Source: Dehalococcoidia bacterium | GTDB taxonomy: Bacteria; Chloroflexota; Dehalococcoidia; DSTF01; WHTK01 | Direction: 5' to 3' | DNA: 64,000 nt | Assembly: GCA_009377745.1 (NCBI GenBank) | Contig: WHTK01000004.1 | Location: 1 to 64,000 of the forward strand | Shown: positions 8,583 through 48,137 of the stretch, one piece after another | Layout: every line of letters begins with the position of its first letter | How positions within the stretch are numbered: position 1 is the stretch's first letter | Made by a program: the position numbers and the translations under genes | Notes under the pieces: generated by a model | Seen by the model: only the letters and a program-made list of their open reading frames with translations | The model's database searches: none | What the model was told of the DNA's origin: nothing

Positions 8583-9798
8583 TCAGCTCGAATGACGGGT
8601 CCTGGAGCTCGGCTTTGTGGCCGCCTATGTCCTTCTTCGTCAGGATGAAGCGGCGGAGGATACCGTACTCGCGCGCCGGCGTGTTGAGGGCGAAGTAGGC
8701 GGTGAGACGGTCTTCCTTGAGATAGAGGACGGTGAACTTGTTGTCCTCATAGCGGCCCCGCAGCAGCACCTCGTCGCGCTCGCCCTCATCGCCGGCAAAC
8801 TCGAGATGCAGGTCGAAGATGTCCGACCAGACGTAGGTGAGGAAGCTATAGGGCGTAGGTTCGCCGGCCATGTTGCGACCGGCGACCTGACCGGTGTACT
8901 CGGCGTGACCCCAGTGCTCGACGCGGCGTCGCTTGCCAAACGTGGCATCCGGATAATTGATGACATCGCCGGCTGCGTAGATCTCCGGGTTGGATGTGCG
9001 CAGGTAGTCATCGACGACGATGCCGTTGTCGACCTCAAGGCCTGCCGCCTGCGCCAGCTCGACGTTGGGCCGAATGCCAACGCCGATGCAGACGAAGTCG
9101 CAAGCGAGAACGTCGCCGCCGCGCAGAGCCACGGCGCCGACACGGCCCTCGCCGCGCAGCTCCGTCACGGTCTCGTTGGTGCGGAAGGTGACTCCCTCGC
9201 GGCTGCAGTAGTCCTGAAAGTAGCCGGCAAGGCTGGCATCGGCGAAGCGGGCCCAGATGTGAGGCAGCGCTTCGATAACGGTGACCTGGACGCCGCGCTG
9301 GGTCAAGGAAGCCGCGACCTTCAGGCCGATGAAGCCGCCGCCGATGATCACGGCGTGACGGCCTGGCCGGGCTTCGGCAGCGATGGCGCCCGCGTCCTGG
9401 GCGGTTCGCAGATAGTGGACGCCCGCAAGGTCAGCGCCGGGAAGTGGTAGACGAATGGGAGAGCCGCCGGTAGCGATGAGCGCCTTCTCGAAGTGGACGG
9501 TCTCGCCACCGGAGAGCGTTGCCTGCTGCGTTGTCGCATCCAGGGCATCGACGCGGACGCCAAGGGCGAGATCGATGGCCTGCTCAGCCAGCTTCCCGGC
9601 CGGCTCAAAGACGATCTCGTCGATCGACTTCTCGCCGCGCATAACCTCTTTCGAGAGCGGTGGCCGGTCGTAGGGTGGCAGCGGCTCCTCACCCACGATG
9701 AGGACGGAGCCTTCCGTGTCGGTCTGGCGGATCAGCTTGGCCGCGTTGAAAGAGGCGATGCCGCCGCCGATCAGGAGGTATTTAACATCGCGAGGCAT
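8563..9798 (-). CDS. FAD-dependent NAD(P)H oxidoreductase, ferredoxin/rubredoxin reductase type
   Basis: 411 residues from ATG 9798. A larger open frame extends upstream but lacks family similarity. The FAD-binding Rossmann motif is YLLIGGGIASFNAAKLI at the N-terminus, the NAD(P)H-binding motif is AVIIGGGFIGLKVAASL near residue 150, and the second FAD contact is YAAGDVINYPD. A C-terminal reductase domain follows, the BphA4/putidaredoxin-reductase arrangement. It probably passes electrons to a ferredoxin or Rieske partner, but no ferredoxin gene is adjacent. The true partner is unknown. Confidence 0.9.
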   Translation of the reverse strand: MPRDVKYLLIGGGIASFNAAKLIRQTDTEGSVLIVGEEPLPPYDRPPLSKEVMRGEKSIDEIVFEPAGKLAEQAIDLALGVRVDALDATTQQATLSGGETVHFEKALIATGGSPIRLPLPGADLAGVHYLRTAQDAGAIAAEARPGRHAVIIGGGFIGLKVAASLTQRGVQVTVIEALPHIWARFADASLAGYFQDYCSREGVTFRTNETVTELRGEGRVGAVALRGGDVLACDFVCIGVGIRPNVELAQAAGLEVDNGIVVDDYLRTSNPEIYAAGDVINYPDATFGKRRRVEHWGHAEYTGQVAGRNMAGEPTPYSFLTYVWSDIFDLHLEFAGDEGERDEVLLRGRYEDNKFTVLYLKEDRLTAYFALNTPAREYGILRRFILTKKDIGGHKAELQDPSFELRSLLQP

Positions 9799-9874
9799 GG
9801 GCCTATCTTGCCACGCTACCGCGTCTGTGGCGTGGCCGAGGTGTCCTATTCGCGGGTGCAGATTCGGAAACGGG

Positions 9875-10264
9875 TCAGCGGATGGAGTTGGATAGCTCGA
9901 TCTGCCAGCGCCACTCCTTGCGGTCGTCCGCGTGCCACCAGGACCTGAGGATGCCAACCTCGCCACCGGGCAGGAGGATAGGCAGGCCAAGCTCGGCGTC
10001 GGTGGGCCAAATGTCCTCACGGCGGATGCTGACGCCCTCGCGGCGCAGCAGGCAGACCGGCGATTGAAGAGTACGCGGCAGGTCCTGGGCGAAGGCGATC
10101 CGCTCACCGTTGTCAGTGCGGATTTCGACGGTCAGGTGTTCGGGGACGGCGTGGACCAGCAGGGCCTCGGTGGCATCGAGGCGGCCGCGGGCGAAGGGGA
10201 TGCCGGTGGCGGCGGCCTTCGGGTACCAGAGGTCCCAGATTTCGATAGACACGCCGCCCATCAT
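9875..10264 (-). CDS. Conserved hypothetical protein
   Basis: 129 residues, soluble, with SIEIWDLWYPKAAATGIPFA at the N-terminus, a beta-rich middle and a tryptophan-rich end (ILRSWWHADDRKEWRWQIEL). I do not recognise the family. It begins 6 nt after the stop of the EamA transporter gene, so the two are very likely cotranscribed. Two ATG codons in tandem (10264 and 10261) are both possible starts and neither has a strong ribosome binding site. Confidence 0.65.
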   Translation of the reverse strand: MMGGVSIEIWDLWYPKAAATGIPFARGRLDATEALLVHAVPEHLTVEIRTDNGERIAFAQDLPRTLQSPVCLLRREGVSIRREDIWPTDAELGLPILLPGGEVGILRSWWHADDRKEWRWQIELSNSIR

Positions 10265-10270
10265 ACCGCC

Positions 10271-11194
10271 CTAGCCGCCGAGGATGATGACCACGAGGCC
10301 GAGGGAGAGCAGGGCGATGCCGACGACCTCGCTGCGGGAGAGGCTCTCCAGGAAGATGCGCCGCGAGAGCAGGTAGGCGAAGAACAGCTCGACCAGGCCG
10401 AGGGTACGGACGTGGGCGACGGGCTCGATGGCCATGGCGGTGAACCAACCGACGGAGGCGGCGGCGCCCATGAAGCCCGCGAAGATCGAGGGTCGCCAGA
10501 CCTGGAGCAGCGTGCCAACGATGCCGGGCTGCCGAACGAGCAGCCAGCCGCCAAGCGCGACGGTCTGGATCGCCTGGGCCCAGAAGAGGGTGAAGGCCGC
10601 GGCGACGAGGAAGGACGGTGCATCGACCTCCAGAGCGGCGCCACGATAGCCGACGGCGGCGAGGGCGAAGCCGGTGCCGGAGGCCAGACCGAGGAGCGCC
10701 GTACGGGAGGTCCAGCCGCGGATGAACCCGGCCAGCGGGCGCTCCTTATCGGCGGGGGAGAGGAAGAGGACGCCGATGGTCGCCAGCATGACGGCAATGG
10801 CGGCCAGCAGCGAGATTTCATCGCCGAGGAAGACGAGGGCGAAGACGGCGACCTGCACCAGCTCGGTCTTGGAATAGGCGACGCCGAGGGTGAAGTTGCG
10901 CTCCGCCATGACTCGCAGCAGCAGGGCCGTGGCGGCGATCTGGGCGAGGGCGCCCTCGGTGACCCAGGCAAGGAAGCCGAGGTTGGGCTGCGGGATGCTA
11001 TCGCCGCGGATGAGGAGGACGATGACGAGCCAGGCGGCGGCGAAGGGCAGGCCGTAGAGGAAGCGGACGAGGGTCGCGCCGAGGGTGCCGAGATCGGCGA
11101 TCAGGTGTCGCTGGGCGGCGTTGCGCAGCGTCTGGGCGAAGCCGGCCCAAATCGTCAGGGGTATCCACAACCATTCGAGGCCGCCGGGCGCCAT
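10271..11194 (-). CDS. EamA/DMT-family transporter
   Basis: 307 residues from ATG 11194 (MAPGGLEWLWIPLTI). A longer frame open to 11302 adds a basic, unconserved leader. About ten hydrophobic segments form two EamA-type five-helix repeats, with the typical E-rich turn (YSKTELVQVAVFALVFLGDE) in the first and VELFFAYLLSRRIFLE in the second. Members move metabolites or drugs. Substrate unknown. Likely operon with the downstream hypothetical gene. Confidence 0.88.
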   Translation of the reverse strand: MAPGGLEWLWIPLTIWAGFAQTLRNAAQRHLIADLGTLGATLVRFLYGLPFAAAWLVIVLLIRGDSIPQPNLGFLAWVTEGALAQIAATALLLRVMAERNFTLGVAYSKTELVQVAVFALVFLGDEISLLAAIAVMLATIGVLFLSPADKERPLAGFIRGWTSRTALLGLASGTGFALAAVGYRGAALEVDAPSFLVAAAFTLFWAQAIQTVALGGWLLVRQPGIVGTLLQVWRPSIFAGFMGAAASVGWFTAMAIEPVAHVRTLGLVELFFAYLLSRRIFLESLSRSEVVGIALLSLGLVVIILGG

Positions 11195-11305
11195 TGCCTG
11201 ACGATAGCGGAGGTGTGGGTATGGGGCTATCGGGAATAAGGCTGAGGAGGTTGTTCGCCAAGATGTTGGGGGGTTCGATCTACGGGCGCTATACACCCTC
11301 ACCCT

Positions 11306-11331
11306 GGCCCTCTCCCTCGAGGGAGAGGGCC
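11306..11331. repeat. 26-bp perfect palindrome in the intergenic repeat cluster
   Basis: The sequence from 11306 to 11331 reads the same on both strands, built on CTCTCCCTCGAGGGAGAG. Together with the repeats at 11341-11410 it fills the space between nadE and the EamA gene and may terminate nadE transcription. Confidence 0.7.
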
Positions 11332-11340
11332 TTACTGGGT

Positions 11341-11410
11341 CTGCGGGATGAATCCCGCAGCTAGCACCTGATGCGGCCTATTTTCAGTAGCTGCGGGATT
11401 CATCCCGTAG
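11341..11410. repeat. Paired inverted REP-like elements downstream of nadE
   Basis: CTGCGGGATGAATCCCGCAG at 11341-11360 is itself palindromic. At 11391-11410 its reverse complement occurs with one change. The two small hairpins can therefore also pair with each other into a long stem, the arrangement of bacterial REP/BIME elements. It starts 18 nt beyond the nadE stop. Confidence 0.7.
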
Positions 11411-11428
11411 GTTGCGCGATGCCGCCTG

Positions 11429-13273
11429 CTAAGGCCGGTATTTGTTTGTGATCGGCAGGCGGCGGTCGCGGCCGAAAGCGCGGGGCGTGATCTTGACGCC
11501 GGGAGGGGCCTGGCGGCGCTTGTACTCGTTGCGGTCCACGAGGCTGACGATGCGGCGGACGGTGGCCTCTTCGAAGCCCATGGCCACGATCTCGTCCAGG
11601 CCGCGGTCCTGCTCGACGTAGGCCTCGAGTATGGGGTCGAGGACGTCGTAGGACGGCAAGGAATCGGTGTCGAGCTGATCCGGCTTCAGCTCGGCTGAGG
11701 GTGGCTTATCGATGATGGCGCGGGGGATGAGGTCACGGCCGGCGAGGGCGTTGCGGTAGCGGGCGAGGCGGTAGACCAGCGTCTTCGGCACGTCCTTGAT
11801 AACGGCGAAGCCGCCCGCCATGTCGCCGTAGAGGGTGGCGTAGCCGGTGGCCATCTCGCTCTTGTTGCCGCAGCTGAGCACTGGCTGCCAGCCAAACTTG
11901 TTCGAGAGGGCCATCCAGATATTGCCGCGGATGCGGGACTGGATATTCTCTTCGGCGGTGCCGGGCGCTGTGCCGGCGAAGACGGGTTCTAGCATTTCGA
12001 GGTAGGCGGCGTGGCCGGGTTCGATAGGGATGATCAGCAGCTTGATGCCGAGATTCTCGGCCAGGGCGCGGGCGTCGGCGATGGAGCCTTCGGAGGAGTA
12101 GCGAGAGGGGTTGGAGACGCCGACGACGTGGCCGGGGCCGAGGGCGTCGGTAGCGATGGTGGCGACGATGCTCGAGTCGATGCCGCCAGAGACGCCGACC
12201 AGGACGGTCTCGAAGCCGTTCTTGTGGACGTAGTCGCGGGTGCCGGTGACGAGGGCCTGGTAGACCTCTGCCTCTTCGGAGAGAGGTGGGGCGATTTCGG
12301 CGGGAACGAGGGATGGTATGAGGCCTGAGGCCGCTCGCTCTTCGAGTGCCTCAGGGTGAGCGGTTCGGGTTTCGAGGGCTTCGGAGTTAGTGGTTTGGGA
12401 TCCGGCTGGAGACTTGCCCGTATGCCCGTATGCCCGTATGCCCGCTTCCCCCGAAACGAAGACCTCGTCGACGGGGGCGGCGCGATGGCGCAGCGTTTCG
12501 AGGCGGCGCAGGGGGTTGTGCAGGCGCGAGAGGTAGAGCGAATCGAGATTGAGGTCAACGACGAGCAGGCTCTCCTCGAAGGCGGGCGCGCGGGCGATCA
12601 GCTCGCCGGTCTGGTCGAAGACAGTGCTGCTGCCGTCGAAGACGAGCTCGTCCTGGCCGCCGACAAGGTTGACGTAGCAGAGGATGACGGCGTTATCGGC
12701 GGCGCGGGTGGCGACCATGCGCTCGCGGTCGGCTCGCTTGCCCTTGTGGAAGGGGGAGCCGTTGATGTTGATGATTACGTCGGCGCCGGCCAGGGCCTGG
12801 TCCTGGGTGGGACCCTCCGGGTACCAGATATCCTCGCAGATGTTTACGCCGACCCGCGCCCCGGCGATGGTGAAGAGCTGGGAGCGCTCGCCGGCGCGGA
12901 AGTAGCGCTTCTCATCGAAGACGCCGTAGTTGGGCAGGAACTGCTTGTGGTAGACGCCGGCAATTTCGCCCTCGTGGATGACTGCGGCGGCGTTGTGGAT
13001 ATCGGCGTTGGAATCGACGAAGCCGGCGACGGCGGTGATGCCGCGTACGGAAGCGGCGATCCTTCGGAGGGCGGCCTGGTTATCGAGGATGAAGGAGCGG
13101 CGCAGCAGGAGGTCCTCGGGCGGGTAGCCGGGGACCGTCAGCTCCGGGAAGGCGACGAGATCGGCGCTGGCCTCGCGGGCGCGGTTAGCGTAGTCGATGA
13201 CCTTGGCGGCGTTGCCGTCGAGGTCCCCCACGGTGGTATTGATCTGCGCGAGGGCGACTCTTAGTGTCTTAAT
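11429..13273 (-). CDS. nadE: Glutamine-dependent NAD+ synthetase, with an apparent ATT start
   Basis: Last step of NAD synthesis: amidates nicotinate adenine dinucleotide using glutamine. The N-terminal nitrilase-type glutaminase shows the Glu (FPELTVPGYPPEDLL), Lys (YHKQFLPNYGVFDE) and Cys (NICEDIWYPEG) triad; the C-terminal synthetase has the pyrophosphatase loop SGGIDSS and KPPSAELKPDQLD. No ATG, GTG or TTG fits the N-terminus. ATT at 13273, 8 nt after AGGAGG, gives KTLRVALAQINTTVGDLDG, exactly the family start; GTG 13231 would delete the first beta strand and has no ribosome binding site. The domain linker (about residues 270-330) contains extra repeat-derived sequence. A promoter and a palindrome lie directly upstream. 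Confidence 0.93.
   Translation of the reverse strand: MKTLRVALAQINTTVGDLDGNAAKVIDYANRAREASADLVAFPELTVPGYPPEDLLLRRSFILDNQAALRRIAASVRGITAVAGFVDSNADIHNAAAVIHEGEIAGVYHKQFLPNYGVFDEKRYFRAGERSQLFTIAGARVGVNICEDIWYPEGPTQDQALAGADVIININGSPFHKGKRADRERMVATRAADNAVILCYVNLVGGQDELVFDGSSTVFDQTGELIARAPAFEESLLVVDLNLDSLYLSRLHNPLRRLETLRHRAAPVDEVFVSGEAGIRAYGHTGKSPAGSQTTNSEALETRTAHPEALEERAASGLIPSLVPAEIAPPLSEEAEVYQALVTGTRDYVHKNGFETVLVGVSGGIDSSIVATIATDALGPGHVVGVSNPSRYSSEGSIADARALAENLGIKLLIIPIEPGHAAYLEMLEPVFAGTAPGTAEENIQSRIRGNIWMALSNKFGWQPVLSCGNKSEMATGYATLYGDMAGGFAVIKDVPKTLVYRLARYRNALAGRDLIPRAIIDKPPSAELKPDQLDTDSLPSYDVLDPILEAYVEQDRGLDEIVAMGFEEATVRRIVSLVDRNEYKRRQAPPGVKITPRAFGRDRRLPITNKYRP
12331..12444 (-). repeat. Repeat-derived insertions inside the nadE linker
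   Basis: Two different repeats are read in frame. An interspersed hairpin element (CCGCTC at 12331-12336, CCTCAGGGTGAGCGG at 12349-12363) shares that 15-mer with the intergenic copy at 20866-20880. An 8-bp tandem repeat, TATGCCCG x3 preceded by a partial unit, spans 12415-12444. They encode a non-conserved stretch between the glutaminase and synthetase domains. Confidence 0.7.
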
Positions 13274-13281
13274 GACACTAA
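13261..13281. promoter_or_regulatory. Palindrome over the nadE start and ribosome binding site (operator candidate)
   Basis: TTAGTGTC-TTAAT-GACACTAA is a perfect 8-bp dyad with a 5-bp spacer. It covers the ATT start and lies next to the AGGAGG. The TAGTGT/ACACTA half-sites resemble operators described for NrtR, the Nudix-related repressor of NAD genes; that identification is my inference. In RNA it could instead form a hairpin that hides the start. Confidence 0.55.
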
Positions 13282-13296
13282 CCTCCTGCTAGGGTG

Positions 13297-13326
13297 ATTA
13301 TCGGCCGTGGAGGGCAGGAGGGTCAA
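13297..13326 (-). promoter_or_regulatory. Sigma70-type promoter for nadE
   Basis: On the minus strand TTGACC (13326-13321) and GATAAT (13302-13297) are 18 nt apart. Transcription would start about 15 nt before the AGGAGG and the palindrome at 13261-13281. Confidence 0.7.
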
Positions 13327-13364
13327 TGCGAGGCGTGATGTAATCGTTCCTCCTGCGCGGTGAA

Positions 13365-13684
13365 TCAGGTCGGGCCGATGCGCAGACTTTCCCCTGGCTT
13401 GATGCTCACCAGGGCCTTAAGCACAGCCGGGATAAGGGGTTGGAGAGATTCAATACTATTGGTTGCCGCTTGGAGCGTAATTATCGCGAGTCCTAGAGGC
13501 ACAGGAGACTGTCTTGCCAGACGCTGGTCGATGGTAACAAAGACTTCATAGTCTCTTGCCGCGAGGTGAAGAAGCTCGCTGTTGCGGATGCCAGACCAGC
13601 CAGCGCGTGATACGGTTTGACCGTATGTCCGGTGAGGTAACGCGCCAGCCGAACAGGCAGGCACTCATCAATGAGAATGCGCAC
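13365..13684 (-). pseudogene. DUF5615-type (PIN-like) toxin with a one-base frameshift
   Basis: From ATG 13684 the frame encodes MRILIDECLPVRLARYLTGH and then departs from the family. A neighbouring frame supplies VSRAGWSGIRNSELLHLAAR, DYEVFVTIDQRLARQ and the normal C-terminus ending at 13365. Insertion of a single base near 13615-13622 joins the two perfectly. DUF5615 proteins are PIN-like nucleases paired with DUF433 antitoxins, and such an antitoxin overlaps this gene upstream. The toxin is either inactivated or the base is a sequencing error. Confidence 0.8.
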
Positions 13685-13904
13685 TCGCGAGGAGGGCTTG
13701 GCGGGCGACTTCGAGCGCTTGAACTGCCTGATCGCGACTGACCGAAGGAAAGTCTAAAAGAAACTCGTCGAGGCTATTGTCTGCTTCCAGATAGTCAATC
13801 AAGTTCTGCACCGGCACACGCGTTCCAACGAAGACGGGTATCCCGCCAAGTATTTCGGGATCGGAATGAACGATTCTGGCCTTGTCTGTCATTGCGTAAT
13901 TCAT
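13668..13904 (-). CDS. DUF433 antitoxin
   Basis: 78 residues with the family pattern RIVHSDPEILGGIPVFVGTR, VPVQNLIDYLEADNSLDEFL and DFPSVSRDQAVQALEVARQA. DUF433 proteins are HTH-like antitoxins of DUF5615 toxins. It overlaps the toxin start by 17 nt. ATG 13904 is 13 bp from the start of the divergent acetyltransferase gene, so each gene's promoter must lie inside the other's coding sequence or the mRNAs are nearly leaderless. Confidence 0.85.
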   Translation of the reverse strand: MNYAMTDKARIVHSDPEILGGIPVFVGTRVPVQNLIDYLEADNSLDEFLLDFPSVSRDQAVQALEVARQALLASAHSH

Positions 13905-13917
13905 CTTATTCTAGGGC

Positions 13918-14439
13918 ATGCACCTTGAACAGGGTAACGTCCGCGCGCGGTCTGCCTCGAGTATTGAGTCATTGACCATCCGGCCACTGCTTGCGTCAGA
14001 GATACCGGCGCTGGCGGCATCGATCGAGGAGATGAGCGCGGCGCAGTTCGAGAACCGCTGGCGGGAGCAAGAGAACGGCTATCGGGAGTTGCTTGTGGCT
14101 GAGCTGGACGGCGAGCTGGTCGGTACGGTGAGCATCCGGCATTCGATAGCGCAGCAGGCGCTGCATCTGTTCGCGCTGGAGGTAGGGCTGTCCTGGCGCC
14201 GGCGCGGCGTCGGCAGCGCCATCGTGGCGCACGTACTAGAAGAGGCGCGACGGCGGCGGCTGCGCAGTGTCTACCTGGAGGTGCGGGTCGATAACCCGGC
14301 GCGAAAGCTGTACCACCGCCTCGGATTCCGGCGGGTGGGCAAGCCGTTTCTCAACGCCTGGTGGCGCTTCGGCGATGACGGGTCGCAGCGGCGGGTGGAG
14401 GAGCTTTCGTTCCGCATGGTGCGGCGGGTGTCGCGCTGA
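13918..14439 (+). CDS. GNAT-family N-acetyltransferase
   Basis: 173 residues. The acetyl-CoA pyrophosphate loop is VGLSWRRRGVGSAIVAHVLE, and VDNPARKLYHRLGFRRVG is the typical C-terminal beta-bulge region. The N-terminus (SLTIRPLLASEIPALAASIE) is also standard. Substrate unknown. A TATTCT hexamer at 13907-13912 would place transcription at or next to the ATG, implying a leaderless message. Confidence 0.88.
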   Translation: MHLEQGNVRARSASSIESLTIRPLLASEIPALAASIEEMSAAQFENRWREQENGYRELLVAELDGELVGTVSIRHSIAQQALHLFALEVGLSWRRRGVGSAIVAHVLEEARRRRLRSVYLEVRVDNPARKLYHRLGFRRVGKPFLNAWWRFGDDGSQRRVEELSFRMVRRVSR

Positions 14440-43286: not shown

Positions 43287-43315
43287 TTTATTGTACAGAA
43301 CATTCGTTCTATACT
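43287..43315 (+). promoter_or_regulatory. Promoter of the phage-like cassette
   Basis: TATACT at 43310-43315 with a weak -35 (TTTATT, 43287-43292) at 17-nt spacing; TTATTG at 16 nt is an alternative. The SOS-box palindrome fills the spacer and touches the -10, an ideal repressing position. Confidence 0.6.
43297..43310. promoter_or_regulatory. LexA (SOS) box in the cassette promoter
   Basis: AGAAC-ATTC-GTTCT is a perfect palindrome containing GAAC-N4-GTTC, the core of the Gram-positive-type LexA box. Symmetry extends imperfectly to about 18 bp. It sits between -35 and -10, so LexA binding would block transcription until DNA damage. Confidence 0.75.
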
Positions 43316-43354
43316 CCTGCATGTCGGACCGAGATTGCGAGAGCTGAGGTGGAT

Positions 43355-43666
43355 GTGCAGTGGTTGGATTTGTTGGTCTCGATAGAGGCGGGCGGCGATT
43401 TCATCCTGGCGTCGCTGAACTGCCTGTACTTCTTGAAGTATGCCGCGGCCACGCGGTCGCCGTCACGCAGGCTGGGGGCGGGCGCCCTGGCGTCTCTGCA
43501 GGGCAGCCTGGCGCTGGAGGCGCTGCTGTTCCTGTCGCAGGCGCCTTCGGGGGCACAGTCCTGGACGCGGGCCGTGGCGCTGGTCACGGTGCGCAGCGCG
43601 CTGCTGGCTTCGACGGCGCTGGTGAGCCTGCTGATCCGGCGTCACCTCTGGCTAACCCGGCGCTAG
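43355..43666 (+). CDS. Small membrane protein, first gene of the phage-like cassette
   Basis: About 103 residues from GTG 43355 (GAGG 6 nt upstream); the frame is open further 5' but crosses the promoter. Three hydrophobic segments (SIEAGGDFILASLNCLYFLK, GSLALEALLFLS and a final TALVSLLIRRHLW helix) suggest a polytopic membrane protein, possibly holin-like. Family not recognised. Confidence 0.6.
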   Translation: MQWLDLLVSIEAGGDFILASLNCLYFLKYAAATRSPSRRLGAGALASLQGSLALEALLFLSQAPSGAQSWTRAVALVTVRSALLASTALVSLLIRRHLWLTRR

Positions 43667-43676
43667 GCGGTGGCCG

Positions 43677-43847
43677 GTGAAGCCGTTTGCCGTCGCTGTG
43701 AAGCGGCAGCAATGGACGCTCGTCTCGCTCTACCTGTTGCTGGCAATCAGCGAGACGGCGGCGAAGCTGCCGCCGGAGTCGCTGACGGCGTTGATCGACC
43801 TGTTGGGCGGCGACGAGGCCCCGGCGAAGGGCGGGCAGGATGATTAG
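43677..43847 (+). CDS. Very small protein in the phage-like cassette
   Basis: 56 residues, GTG 43677 to TAG 43847. A basic N-terminus (VKPFAVAVKRQQ) precedes one hydrophobic helix (WTLVSLYLLLAISETAAKL) and an acidic tail. Supported by tight packing: it starts 11 nt after the previous stop and overlaps the next start by 8 nt. Single-span membrane peptide or helical accessory protein; function unknown. Confidence 0.5.
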   Translation: MKPFAVAVKRQQWTLVSLYLLLAISETAAKLPPESLTALIDLLGGDEAPAKGGQDD

Positions 43848-44223
43848 CGGTCCGTCCCTGCCCGATGAGGCCCTCATTGCCAAAGACAAACCCAGGAGCC
43901 ACGCCCGCCGTATTCGCCGGCCGGACCCGCGACGGTTCTACGGCGAGGCGTTGAGTAAAGCCGAACGCTTGGACCTGCCGGCGGCGCTAAAGATCGAGGG
44001 CATGGATGAGGAGATCGCCGTGCTGCGGCTAAGGCTGCGCACGGCGATCGAAGAGCGGCCGGACGACATCGAGCTGATGTTCAGGGGCATTGGCCTGATC
44101 GTCAGGACGGTGGCGGCGCGCTATCGCCTCTCCAAGCAGGCTGAACGCGACCTGGACTCTAGCCTGGCCGGCGTTGTCCGGACCCTGGGCGACCTGTTGC
44201 CGGGAGGGCTCATCGATGAGTGA
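43840..44223 (+). CDS. Small helical protein upstream of terminase (possible small-terminase role)
   Basis: 127 residues, ATG 43840. Basic N-terminal third (DKPRSHARRIRRPDPRRFYG), then helices IEGMDEEIAVLRLRLRTAIE and LMFRGIGLIVRTVAARYRLS. No membrane segment. Position, size and helical character fit a terminase small subunit or DNA-recognition factor, but I see no confident HTH. It overlaps its neighbours on both sides (8 nt each). Confidence 0.6.
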   Translation: MISGPSLPDEALIAKDKPRSHARRIRRPDPRRFYGEALSKAERLDLPAALKIEGMDEEIAVLRLRLRTAIEERPDDIELMFRGIGLIVRTVAARYRLSKQAERDLDSSLAGVVRTLGDLLPGGLIDE

Positions 44224-44431
44224 GAGGTCATCGGCGTTGGAGGCTGAGATCGGCCGCGTTGTGCAGCGCACCCGGCGGATAGGCGCGGAGGCGGCCTTTC
44301 GCGCCGCCATCGAGGAGCGGCTACGCGGCCTGGAATCAGAGATGAGCGAGGTGAAGTCGCGGCTGAACGGGCTGCTGTTCTTCATCGCCAGCACGGTCAT
44401 CGCGCAGGTCGTACTGAGGATCTGGGCGTGA
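44216..44431 (+). CDS. Coiled-coil plus membrane-anchor protein, XhlA-like
   Basis: 71 residues from ATG 44216 with GGGAGGG upstream. A charged amphipathic coil (AAIEERLRGLESEMSEVKSR) is followed by one C-terminal membrane helix (LLFFIASTVIAQVVLRIW). This is the layout of XhlA-type phage lysis accessory proteins. Overlaps terminase by 4 nt. The lysis role is inferred from layout only. Confidence 0.65.
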   Translation: MSERSSALEAEIGRVVQRTRRIGAEAAFRAAIEERLRGLESEMSEVKSRLNGLLFFIASTVIAQVVLRIWA

Positions 44432-45930
44432 TGCTTGCTAAAGGTGCGAGGGGCGCCTCCAACGCGGTGTCCACCGCCCAGATTGATCTGAAGGTGGCGT
44501 CCATCCCCAGCCGCCCGGTCCCCACATCACAGGGCCCGGCGTCCGGAAGGCCCGGGAAGACGGCAGCGGGTCTCAAATCGCCGTTGAGGCCTTATCAGCG
44601 CCAGGCGGCGCGGGCCATTGTCGATAGCGTGCTGCGGCGCAAGGGGCTGTCGTTCTCGGTGGAGATCGCGCGGCAGGGCGGCAAGAACGAGCTTTCGGCC
44701 CGCATCGAGCTGCTGCTGCTGGCGACGCATCTCCATCGAGACATCACCTCGATCAAGGCGGCGCCGACGCTGCGGCCCCAGGCGCTAATCAGCCTGCAAC
44801 GGCTCTGGGAGCGGGTGCAGGACGCCGGTCTCGACGCCTGGGCAACGAAGGAGAACGGCAACGCTGTCCGGCTGGGGCGCGCGCGGCAGCTCTTCCTCTC
44901 GGCGGAGCCCAACAGCAACGTCGTCGGCCACACCGCAGGTCTCCTTCTGGAGATCGATGAAGCCCAGGACGTGGACACGGACAAGTTCGACAAGGAATTC
45001 CGGCCGATGGCTGCCAGCACAGGCGCCACCACCGTCTTCTATGGCACGGCCTGGGACGACGCCAACCTGCTGGAGCGCGCCAAGCAAACGCACCTGGAGC
45101 AGGAACGCCGCGACGGCATCCGGCGTCACTTCGAGTACGACTGGCAGGTGGTGGCGGCGAGCAACCCGGATTACGGACGCTACGTCCTCGGCGAGCGCGA
45201 GCGGCTGGGCGCCGAGCACCCGCTATTCCTCACGCAGTACAGCCTGCGGACGCTGCCGGGGGCGGGCAGGCTGCTGGGCCCGGCTCAGCTATCGCTGCTG
45301 CGCGGGTCGCATGCGGCCCTGGCTGGGCCGGTGGCGGGCGAAACCTACGTGGCGGGGCTGGACCTCGCGGGCGAGGCGTCGCGGCCGGGGAGCGAGGCCG
45401 GGCACGACGCCACGGTGCTGACCATCGGCCGGGTGCGCGAGCCGGAAGCCGGTAGCCCCCTGGCCGAGAGCAGCGTCGAGGTGGTGCGGCACTACGCCTG
45501 GACCGGCGTGGCGCACACGGAGATATACGGCGCCCTCGTGTCGCTGCTGCGTGACACGTGGCGGGTGCAGCGTCTCTGCGTCGATGCGACCGGTATCGGT
45601 GAGCCGGTTGCCGCCTTCCTGACCAAGGGGCTGGGCGGCGGGCGTGTCGAGGCCGTGAAGCTCAGCTCCGAGACCAAGTCGAGTTTGGGCTTCGAGCTGC
45701 TGTCAGCCGTTAACGGCGGCCGGCTAAGGCTTTACGAGGCCGTGTCAGCCGAGTGCTGGCGGCAGCTGGAGCGCTGTCGCGCCGTCTACCGGCCGAACCG
45801 GACGCTGAGCTACTTCGTCGAGGCGCGCGACGGCCACGACGACTACGTGATCAGCCTGGCGCTGGCGTGGGCCGCCGCGTCGGGAGCGGGGCCGCGACGC
45901 GCCCGCGGCCGGAGCGATGGATTGATCTGA
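44428..45930 (+). CDS. Phage terminase large subunit (DNA-packaging ATPase/nuclease)
   Basis: 500 residues. ATPase domain: SPLRPYQRQAARAIVDSVLR, the Walker-A-like VEIARQGGKNELSARIE, Walker B LLLEIDEAQDV (about residues 170-180) and the coupling-motif region TTVFYGTAWDD. RNase-H-like nuclease domain: first Asp in YVAGLDLAGE, second in CVDATGIGEP and third in DGHDDYVISLALAWA. All catalytic positions look present, so the protein is probably functional. GTG 44428 (GAGGA 7 nt upstream) or ATG 44431 can start it. Residues about 19-36 are encoded by a repeat (44481-44533) that recurs at the gene's end. Confidence 0.9.
   Translation: MMLAKGARGASNAVSTAQIDLKVASIPSRPVPTSQGPASGRPGKTAAGLKSPLRPYQRQAARAIVDSVLRRKGLSFSVEIARQGGKNELSARIELLLLATHLHRDITSIKAAPTLRPQALISLQRLWERVQDAGLDAWATKENGNAVRLGRARQLFLSAEPNSNVVGHTAGLLLEIDEAQDVDTDKFDKEFRPMAASTGATTVFYGTAWDDANLLERAKQTHLEQERRDGIRRHFEYDWQVVAASNPDYGRYVLGERERLGAEHPLFLTQYSLRTLPGAGRLLGPAQLSLLRGSHAALAGPVAGETYVAGLDLAGEASRPGSEAGHDATVLTIGRVREPEAGSPLAESSVEVVRHYAWTGVAHTEIYGALVSLLRDTWRVQRLCVDATGIGEPVAAFLTKGLGGGRVEAVKLSSETKSSLGFELLSAVNGGRLRLYEAVSAECWRQLERCRAVYRPNRTLSYFVEARDGHDDYVISLALAWAAASGAGPRRARGRSDGLI
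44481..44533 (+). repeat. Cassette repeat, copy 1 (inside the terminase 5' end)
   Basis: About 53 nt beginning GATTGATCTGAAGGTGGCGT and ending CCCCACATCACAGG. Aligns well with copy 2 at 45920-45973 and with the inverted copy at 46362-46411. Here it is translated as part of the terminase N-terminus. Confidence 0.7.
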
Positions 45931-45973
45931 AGGGTGGTGTCCACCCCATGCCCTGCAACCCCCACACCACAGG
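45920..45973 (+). repeat. Cassette repeat, copy 2 (over the terminase stop)
   Basis: 54 nt from GATTGATCTGAAGGGTGGTG to CCCCCACACCACAGG. The terminase TGA (45928-45930) lies inside it. GTGGTGT and ACACCAC can form a 7-bp stem, and GGGTGG-TGT-CCACCC a competing smaller hairpin. Confidence 0.75.
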
Positions 45974-46008
45974 ATGGGCAGTGACCCTCAACGAGAGGAG
46001 GAAATGAC

Positions 46009-46338
46009 ATGGTAGCCCTACAAAACAGACCGCCTTCCTATTTGCGGCAACCCGTCATCGGAGACGAGGAGCTGCCGCGGCCGGCCCGGCGAGACGCGCT
46101 GCCGGAGCACACCCATTACGCCGATACCGGCTGTGACCTGCACCCGAGCTGCCTGACTTGCCCGCTGGTGCGCTGCCGCTACGACGAGCCCGGTGGCGCC
46201 CGCCGCCTCCTGAGTGAGGACCGCGACCGGACGATGCTGGAGCTACAGCGATCGCACGTGCCGATCAACTCGATTGCGGCCCGGTTTGGCATCTCACGCC
46301 GCACCGTCTTCCGGGTGCTGGCGCGGCACCGAAGTTAG
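46009..46338 (+). CDS. Cys-cluster helix-turn-helix protein of the phage-like cassette
   Basis: 109 residues; AGGAGG upstream of ATG 46009. The middle carries TGCDLHPSCLTCPLVRCRYD, four cysteines that could bind zinc or an Fe-S cluster. The C-terminus is a helix-turn-helix (SHVPINSIAARFGISRRTVF, then RVLARHR). Probably a DNA-binding regulator or recognition factor. It lies between terminase and portal, where phages often encode small DNA-binding proteins. Confidence 0.75.
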   Translation: MVALQNRPPSYLRQPVIGDEELPRPARRDALPEHTHYADTGCDLHPSCLTCPLVRCRYDEPGGARRLLSEDRDRTMLELQRSHVPINSIAARFGISRRTVFRVLARHRS

Positions 46339-46361
46339 GCAGGCCGATTACGAGTAGGGTT

Positions 46362-46411
46362 CCTGTGGTGTGGGTGTGGGGACGGCTGGAGGGAGGACAC
46401 CACTTTCAGAT
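46362..46411 (-). repeat. Cassette repeat, copy 3 (inverted, before the portal gene)
   Basis: The reverse complement runs ATCTGAAAGTGGTGTCC through CCCACACCACAGG, matching copies 1 and 2. It ends 12 nt before the portal start and brings GTGGTGT/ACACCAC arms able to form a hairpin. Confidence 0.7.
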
Positions 46412-46423
46412 GAGGAGGAGCAG

Positions 46424-47803
46424 ATGACCAGTCCGCCCGCTACCGCCAACCAGAGCGTCATAGAGCAGCTGACGCGCCTCGATAGCCAGCGTCTGCGCGC
46501 CTACCGCGAGAACCTGGCGTTCTATCGCGGGCAGCAATGGCCGGCCCAGGCGCGCCGCCGGGAGCGGCGGCTGGTCTTCAACTACGCCAGGGCGATGATC
46601 GACAAGACAGCGTCTTACCTGACGGCGGGCATGAGCTGCGTCGTGGATGAGGAAGACGGGACGCAAGAAGCGCGGGAGCGGGCTCGGCAGGCCGAGAAGG
46701 CCCTGCGCCAGGTCTATGAGGCCAACAACCTGGCCCAGCTCGACTTCGATGCCGAGATCGACGCCTCGATCCTGGGCGATGGCGCCTTCAAGGTGACCTG
46801 GGACCCGGACGAACGCCGGATACGAGTCTCTTCGCCGGACGTGCAGGGGCTATTCGCCTGGTGGCTGGGCGACGACGTGACGCGGCTCTGGCGGGTCGCC
46901 AGCCGCTACTACCTCTCGGACGAGGAGGCCACGCTGCTCTACGGCGAGGCGGTCCCGCGGCGGACGCAGCGTCATGGCGGTCGCGCCGGCGTCCCGGTGG
47001 CCAAGCAGCATAGCGTGGTCGAGGTCTGGACGCGGGAAGAGTTCGAGCTCTGGTTTGATGGCGGCCTACTTGATGCCAAGCCGAACCCCTACGGCTTCAT
47101 CCCGTTCGTGATCTTCGCCAACCTGCGCGAGCCGCATCAGTTCTGGGGCGTCAGCGATATCGAGGCCGTGCGCGAGCCGGTGCGGGAGCTGAACCGGGCG
47201 CTCTCGCAGCTCTCGATGATCCTGGAGCTGTCCGGCAATCCCGTCGCGGTTCTGGAGAACGTGACGGAGGCGCAGGACATCGCCGTGGCGCCGGGCGCGG
47301 TCTGGGAGCTACCGGAGCGGGCGCGCGCCTACTTGCTGGACCTGCTGCAGGGTGGCGGCGTGGGCCTGCACGGCGACTACGTGCAGATGATCTACCGGAC
47401 GCTGCATGACCTGGGCGAGTCGCCGCGTACCGCGTTTGGCGAGAGCCGCGGGCTGTCCGGAGTTGCGCTCAACATCGAGCTGGACCCGCTACTGAAGAAG
47501 ATCCAGCGCAAGCGCCTGCTGCGCGACGCGGCGATCAGGCGCCGCAACGAGCTGGTCCTGCGGCTACTGGAGCAGTACACCGGCGTGAGCTACGCGCCTT
47601 ACCGCTCGCGCGTAGTCTGGGGGCCGCTGTTGCCGCCGGACCGCAGCCGGCTGGTCGGCGATGAGACGCGGCTGGTGCAGGCCGGCATCCACTCGCGTCG
47701 CCGGGCTGCCAACGAGCTGGGCGTGGCCGACCCGGAGACCGAGTTTGAGCGCTGGCGCGAGGAGCGGGCGCTGCTGGTTGCTGAGGAGGAAGACGATGCT
47801 TGA
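46424..47803 (+). CDS. Phage portal protein (SPP1 gp6-like)
   Basis: 459 residues from ATG 46424 with AGGAGG upstream. YRENLAFYRGQQWPAQARRR and LVFNYARAMIDKTASYLTAG near the N-terminus, then GDGAFKVTWDPDERRIRVSS and a PNPYGFIPFVIFANLREPHQ-type stem region, and a long C-terminal helical part (LLKKIQRKRLLRDAAIRRRN). These are typical of dodecameric portals that seat the terminase on a procapsid. No capsid gene follows. Overlaps the next gene by 8 nt. Confidence 0.87.
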   Translation: MTSPPATANQSVIEQLTRLDSQRLRAYRENLAFYRGQQWPAQARRRERRLVFNYARAMIDKTASYLTAGMSCVVDEEDGTQEARERARQAEKALRQVYEANNLAQLDFDAEIDASILGDGAFKVTWDPDERRIRVSSPDVQGLFAWWLGDDVTRLWRVASRYYLSDEEATLLYGEAVPRRTQRHGGRAGVPVAKQHSVVEVWTREEFELWFDGGLLDAKPNPYGFIPFVIFANLREPHQFWGVSDIEAVREPVRELNRALSQLSMILELSGNPVAVLENVTEAQDIAVAPGAVWELPERARAYLLDLLQGGGVGLHGDYVQMIYRTLHDLGESPRTAFGESRGLSGVALNIELDPLLKKIQRKRLLRDAAIRRRNELVLRLLEQYTGVSYAPYRSRVVWGPLLPPDRSRLVGDETRLVQAGIHSRRRAANELGVADPETEFERWREERALLVAEEEDDA

Positions 47804-48137
47804 TGACACCGCGACGGCGATCGTATTGCTGCTGTTCCTCTCGGCGGCGGTAGAGCGCGGCGTGGAGGTCGTGCTCTCCGCGCTGGATGGCTGGCAGGCC
47901 CCGGCGCAGCGCCGCCTCCTGGCCGTCGGGCTCTCGGCCGCCTTGAGTGCGGCGATTGCTTTCGGATTGGAGCTCGACCTGATCGGTCCGCTGCTGAGCG
48001 AGGAAGCGCTGACTCTGACTCAGGCCCGAGCCGCCACGGCAATTGCGCTGGCCGGCGGCAGCGGCCCGGCCCACGAGCTGATCCGGCTGATCGAAGAGGC
48101 GAAGGCGCGCTTGAAGGCCGGATCGTCAGGAGCTTAG
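47796..48137 (+). CDS. Small membrane protein closing the cassette (holin-like candidate)
   Basis: 113 residues from ATG 47796, GAGGAGG upstream. Two membrane segments (AIVLLLFLSAAVERGVEVVL and LLAVGLSAALSAAIAFGLEL), then a charged C-terminal helix (ELIRLIEEAKARLKAG). Topology fits a class II holin or another phage membrane protein. The stop overlaps the convergent acyl-CoA synthetase stop by 4 nt, leaving no room for an attachment site at this end. Confidence 0.65.
   Translation: MLDDTATAIVLLLFLSAAVERGVEVVLSALDGWQAPAQRRLLAVGLSAALSAAIAFGLELDLIGPLLSEEALTLTQARAATAIALAGGSGPAHELIRLIEEAKARLKAGSSGA

Follow-up and report, generated by a model that had tools for sequence, protein, structure and literature searches.

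The window analyzed here is a stretch of 64,000 nucleotides from a Dehalococcoidia genome (assembly GCA_009377745.1, contig WHTK01000004.1; referred to below as genome G000 of family f1, and its contig as C60). ORF calling and translation of the window reveal a cassette of eight ORFs at 43355-48137, all on the plus strand, with an exact LexA (SOS) box of the form GAACN4GTTC, GAACATTCGTTC (43298..43309), about 50 bp 5' of the first ORF. This ORF (43355..43666) encodes a small membrane protein with two predicted transmembrane (TM) segments, a holin-like candidate assigned to the mem7 family by a profile built from relatives (E 6e-11). It is followed by a small helical protein of 56 aa from the s6 family (43677..43847), whose orthologues occupy the equivalent position in relatives, and by a candidate TerS (43840..44223), which lacks an N-terminal GxPxGNxNAxKHG motif and belongs to a family shared with phage-form TerS proteins (phrog_1889/509/370, best E 1e-9). 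The fourth gene (44216..44431) encodes a small s2-family protein, with orthologues in relatives and a single predicted C-terminal TM segment.

TerL (44428..45930) was recognized by profile matches and motif alignment, with homology beginning near 44563. Single models match it weakly (Terminase_6C/phrog_5909, E ~1e-3); its identity is clear because Walker A (RQGGKNE), Walker B (LLLEIDEAQD) and the nuclease acidic positions are kept in an alignment with relatives across the order. A search of the genome with Pfam PF03354 returned no TerL match, although TerL is present, and PF05065 returned no capsid match, although a capsid is present. Single Pfam models are thus too insensitive for this TerL and capsid, and profiles derived from relatives are needed. 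Next comes a Cys4 protein with an HTH_7 domain (46009..46338; E 8e-6, four invariant Cys), probably a regulator, and then the portal protein (46424..47803), which matches SPP1_portal (PF05133, E 3e-22) and phrog_64 (E 1e-31) and is 65-72% identical to the portals of the order. The last gene (47796..48137) encodes a small protein with two TM segments, again a holin-like candidate, of which a relative lies 3' of the portal in an integrase-bearing contig (L089). Its stop codon lies within a 4-nt overlap with a convergent AMP-ligase gene, a case of simple tail-to-tail packing. No endolysin was identified.

This gene content agrees well with a first-pass annotation made from the sequence alone, which had called eight plus-strand genes, among them a terminase and a portal with intact-looking motifs, a Cys-cluster/HTH protein and at least three membrane-spanning small proteins (TM segments are predicted in the first ORF, 44216-44431 and 47796-48137), together with the LexA box in the promoter and the 4-nt overlap with a host gene. 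Disrupted catalytic residues, which it had named as an objection to its own reading, do not appear in the alignment. The tight overlap of the genes does not hold throughout, as gaps of about 10, 78 and 85 nt occur.

Head and tail-tip genes are found on a different contig, C26 (locus L190). This genome has exactly one capsid gene (C26:2218-3120), detected with a profile of the divergent HK97-type capsid family of its relatives and matching phrog_212 with E 3e-68. It adjoins a scaffold gene preceded by a LexA box with one mismatch. The opposite strand carries an SU10-type adaptor (SU10_adaptor, E 5e-10), a hub with a length of about 600-650 aa and a gene for 70 aa whose product, judging by its sequence, may be a small OB/spike-like protein; ruvB (L190:10019-11113) comes directly after the hub and 70-aa genes. 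The hub family, modeled from sequences of relatives (pLDDT 90.7), is predicted by structure comparison to adopt a Mu gp44/VgrG-type hub fold (Z about 25), with an insert at about residues 42-329 that would form a six-bladed propeller like those of fucose lectins (Z about 26). In G000 the 5' end of the hub gene (L190:7765-7980) is spread over two reading frames and contains an in-frame TAG; the tail tip of this strain may be broken or in early decay, or the assembly may be in error. The capsid profile has no match in the whole of C60 (165 kb), nor is an integrase found there, so that the packaging and capsid halves lie at least ~43 kb apart unless misassembled. The absence of capsid and tail genes noted at first pass therefore stands for the 165-kb window contig and fails for the genome, which has scaffold, capsid, adaptor, hub and spike-like genes on C26; the capsid genes with a LexA box that it had suggested looking for elsewhere exist there, behind the one-mismatch box.

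LexA boxes are not a peculiarity of this genome. A box with at most one mismatch lies within 150 bp upstream of 31 of 98 cassette-gene promoters versus 26 of 351 other promoters (p=6e-9), and exact boxes are present in 9 of 98 versus 6 of 351 (p 1e-3), the other promoters being taken from the same loci and promoter positions following our own gene predictions. In many genera packaging and scaffold-capsid operons alike carry LexA boxes, for example in genomes G010, G013, G016, G050, G076 and G211. Our reading of the motif as an SOS box is supported by its presence before lexA in most of the order (GAACN4GTTC-type, at one mismatch in G000) and, in family f4, before a dinB-like gene. On the strength of these motifs, both loci of G000 are apparently under DNA-damage control. 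In two f4 loci (L113 and L115), the dinB-like gene with its exact LexA box adjoins the capsid locus.

Of the 294 genomes of the class that we surveyed, 146 have the portal, 130 the capsid and 115 both (Fisher p 5e-35). Within the order, 17 of 18 genomes encode the portal, mostly as a single copy, and TerL and hub were detected in 26/26 and 24/26 of the genomes tested, respectively; the cassette is indeed conserved in relatives, a check that the first-pass annotation had proposed. About half of the class genomes sampled have no module, which is lost or patchy in the class, absence being due in part to incomplete genomes. In relatives within the order the capsid family is encoded close to the portal in some cases and on a separate contig in others. 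Adjacent capsid genes had been named at first pass as refuting its reading; they do occur in some relatives, but the element there is vertically inherited and has no integrase.

The gene set is passed down vertically across Dehalococcoidia. Portal and rpoB divergence are correlated (Mantel r 0.81 over 28 genomes; 0.82 within the order), as are those of capsid and rpoB (0.58 over 27 genomes; 0.85 within the order), with 0 of 5000 permutations as high in either case. The main departure is the capsid of family f1, that of the present genome, which leaves its order in the tree and groups with G041; this branching hints at capsid replacement. Genera also have flanking host genes in common: a polyprenyl synthase lies upstream in both G000 and G017, and several gene families surround the capsid in both G001 and G008. 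The coding genes have omega values of 0.05-0.33; TerL, portal, capsid and scaffold evolve under purifying selection. Relatives of the portal also occur outside the class in the same phylum (G433, G447, G454, G405, G516, G546 and others, E 1e-137 to 1e-79).

Closed genomes allow the chromosomal layout to be followed. In genus g67 (three closed genomes), the order of hub, portal, and capsid with TerL is constant, with gaps of 76-119 kb between them and a total span of 191-231 kb. In the six closed genomes of family f17, portal, capsid and hub lie together, with TerL 6 kb to 1.3 Mb away; these genomes contain 19-50 reductive dehalogenase matches, which is why we take f17 to be probably Dehalococcoides and Dehalogenimonas. 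The element spans 47 kb to 1.3 Mb in 7/9 closed genomes and about 10-11 kb in 2/9, versus 17-20 kb in its phage relatives. At least two TerL matches at separate sites were seen in G083, G205 and G215, which are among the Dehalogenimonas-like closed genomes. An integrase-family profile had no match in 775 kb of chromosomal loci, including the window and L190, in line with the lack of integrase noted at first pass. With their loci scattered, such systems are hard to detect with contiguity-based tools.

One could see in these loci an ancient defective prophage, what remains of one or more past infections and now without a role. Some branches look the part: the Dehalococcoides-like closed genomes (L198 of G030, 9696-14181; G111; G065) hold a decayed copy with portal and hub fragments, a partial TerL and TerS, and no match in a capsid profile search, and the hub of G000 itself has the disrupted 5' end described above. 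Decay has occurred in those branches, but as a general account it is unlikely: TerL, portal, capsid and scaffold are under purifying selection, the portal tree follows the hosts class-wide, LexA boxes are conserved, and most genomes have single intact copies. Selection and conservation together do not fit simple decay.

Phage-like relatives of the cassette exist. Four IMG/VR contigs (L030, L032, L045 and L086) combine TerS-TerL-portal with a tyrosine recombinase (PF00589 E 1e-34); in the first three, which measure 17-20 kb, the portal is followed by scaffold-capsid-adaptor and hub genes, the sequence of L086 being partial. This gene order is shared with the chromosomal set, and their portals are about 54-55% identical to that of the window. 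Unlike the chromosomal form, they consist of one contig of ~17-20 kb with a tyrosine recombinase and a phage-type TerS N terminus; no exact LexA box was found upstream of their TerS-to-hub genes. In L045, a hub gene split between the two ends suggests circularity, and a search for terminal repeats in the phage-like contigs, two of them covered in part, found none. The hubs of these contigs belong to the Mu-gp44/VgrG-type family and no tape-measure-type gene was recognized, an unusual short-tailed layout. More distantly, capsids of the phrog_212 family from Streptomyces phage Rowa and Pseudomonas phage Ab18, which are 43-57 kb phages, are about 38-40% identical to the capsid over its length; the phage portals matching the window portal come only from phages other than these two and are less than 25% identical. 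In another IMG/VR contig (L088:2588-4062) the cassette portal is cut short, with a tyrosine recombinase directly after it and the terminase of another phage downstream; the portal gene seems to have been the insertion site of a prophage.

The phage-type TerS, which matches TerS PHROGs, opens with GAPKGNQNARKHGFY or a close variant of it. Most phage-like contigs retain this N-terminal motif in exact or slightly altered form, whereas cassette-type chromosomal loci are without it, the sole exception being the decayed Dehalococcoides-like copy. No structural match at E <= 0.001 was obtained with the predicted TerS structure (pLDDT 76); TerS is therefore called from gene position and from the PHROG matches that its phage forms give.

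Taken together, we interpret the window locus as part of a dispersed, SOS-inducible, gene-transfer-agent (GTA)-like viriform that descends from a small temperate phage with a short tail and is inherited vertically, a reading to which we give a probability of roughly 0.7. A viriform is preferred to a broken virus because the set is vertically inherited across the class. The first-pass annotation had offered one part of a split gene-transfer agent as one of its readings, and this suggestion is well supported: the other half lies elsewhere behind a LexA-like box, and the set is conserved, co-diversifies with its hosts and is under purifying selection. We infer a sequence in which SOS induction is followed by headful packaging of host DNA, then by lysis and delivery. 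DNA damage would inactivate LexA, and the packaging operon (TerS, TerL, portal, Cys4-HTH regulator and membrane proteins) would be induced together with the unlinked head and tail-tip locus on C26. Procapsids would then assemble on the portal and be filled by TerL, guided by the motif-less TerS, with cellular DNA of any sequence; the small membrane proteins would assist lysis, and the particles would attach to sister cells through the lectin-like hub.

We compared the system with the GTA criteria of Kogay et al. 2022 (PMC9662315). Its proteins derive from caudoviricetes (portal, TerL, TerS, capsid, adaptor and hub matches); it is endogenized over several loci (C60 and C26 here, two or three separated loci in closed relatives, no integrase); and it co-diversifies with its hosts by vertical inheritance, according to the portal-rpoB and capsid-rpoB correlations. 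From its extent in seven of the nine closed genomes, but not in the two with about 10-11 kb, the genome of the element may be too large or dispersed to be packaged whole in one particle. Random packaging of host DNA is hinted at by a sole feature, the loss of the TerS N-terminal motif. We prefer 'GTA-like' to 'GTA' because three of the six criteria agree, one may do so, and host-DNA packaging and delivery are putative. An active prophage, with an integrase and one contiguous excisable element, was also considered and does not fit, as no integrase was found in the chromosomal loci scanned and the genes lie at separate loci.

The particle may also have been domesticated for another job, damage-released heads, DNA-filled or empty, killing competitors, shedding DNA or aiding the repair of kin without real gene transfer. 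The fucose-lectin-like propeller on the hub, the SOS boxes and the lack of any tube or tape-measure family in the loci examined would all suit such a role; we hold it improbable, since the conserved terminase and portal, whose motifs are intact, speak for DNA packaging, and it overlaps with proposed GTA roles (PMC9632790). A phage satellite of the PICI/PLE type, with its own terminase and capsids borrowed from a helper, another first-pass suggestion prompted by a window that by itself is a packaging cassette without capsid, is largely refuted and very improbable, as the genome encodes its own capsid and scaffold (on C26) as well as adaptor and hub, these genes sometimes adjoin the cassette in relatives, and the element is inherited vertically and has no integrase in the loci scanned.

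The GTA-like viriform invites comparison with RcGTA-type agents of Alphaproteobacteria (Rhodobacter, Caulobacter), which likewise have head, terminase and adsorption genes of caudoviricete origin, lie at several chromosomal loci, are inherited vertically and have a TerS without the N-terminal DNA-binding part (PMC6854486, PMC9662315, PMC7947584). Loss of this domain has been proposed as a mark of GTA-type small terminases (PMC6854486); by analogy, the motif loss in the chromosomal TerS of Dehalococcoidia recalls the RcGTA small terminase, a DNA-binding role of the lost motif being putative. Unlike RcGTA, the Dehalococcoidia set belongs to another phylum and another phage ancestor, is short-tailed with no recognizable tube or tape measure, places even its packaging genes and its capsid genes at different loci, and carries LexA boxes at both, whereas RcGTA is activated by GafA (PMC6363796). 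We consider the odds somewhat better than even that Dehalococcoidia possess an independently evolved, class-wide GTA, derived from a short-tailed phage, encoded at two or three loci that the SOS response induces together.

Few GTAs have a known genetic basis, and three independently exapted groups are evaluated in PMC9662315. Our literature search, with most subscription papers outside its coverage, found no report of a GTA from Dehalococcoidia or Chloroflexota. If our reading is true, it would add a further GTA origin in another phylum, and domestication of phages for DNA packaging would be commoner than prophage callers suggest. The pair of phage-type and chromosomal TerS makes the loss of packaging specificity directly testable. 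The closed-genome relatives (Dehalogenimonas-like) are rich in reductive dehalogenase genes, and such a system, if real, may account for gene flow among slow-growing subsurface and dehalogenating bacteria of this class.
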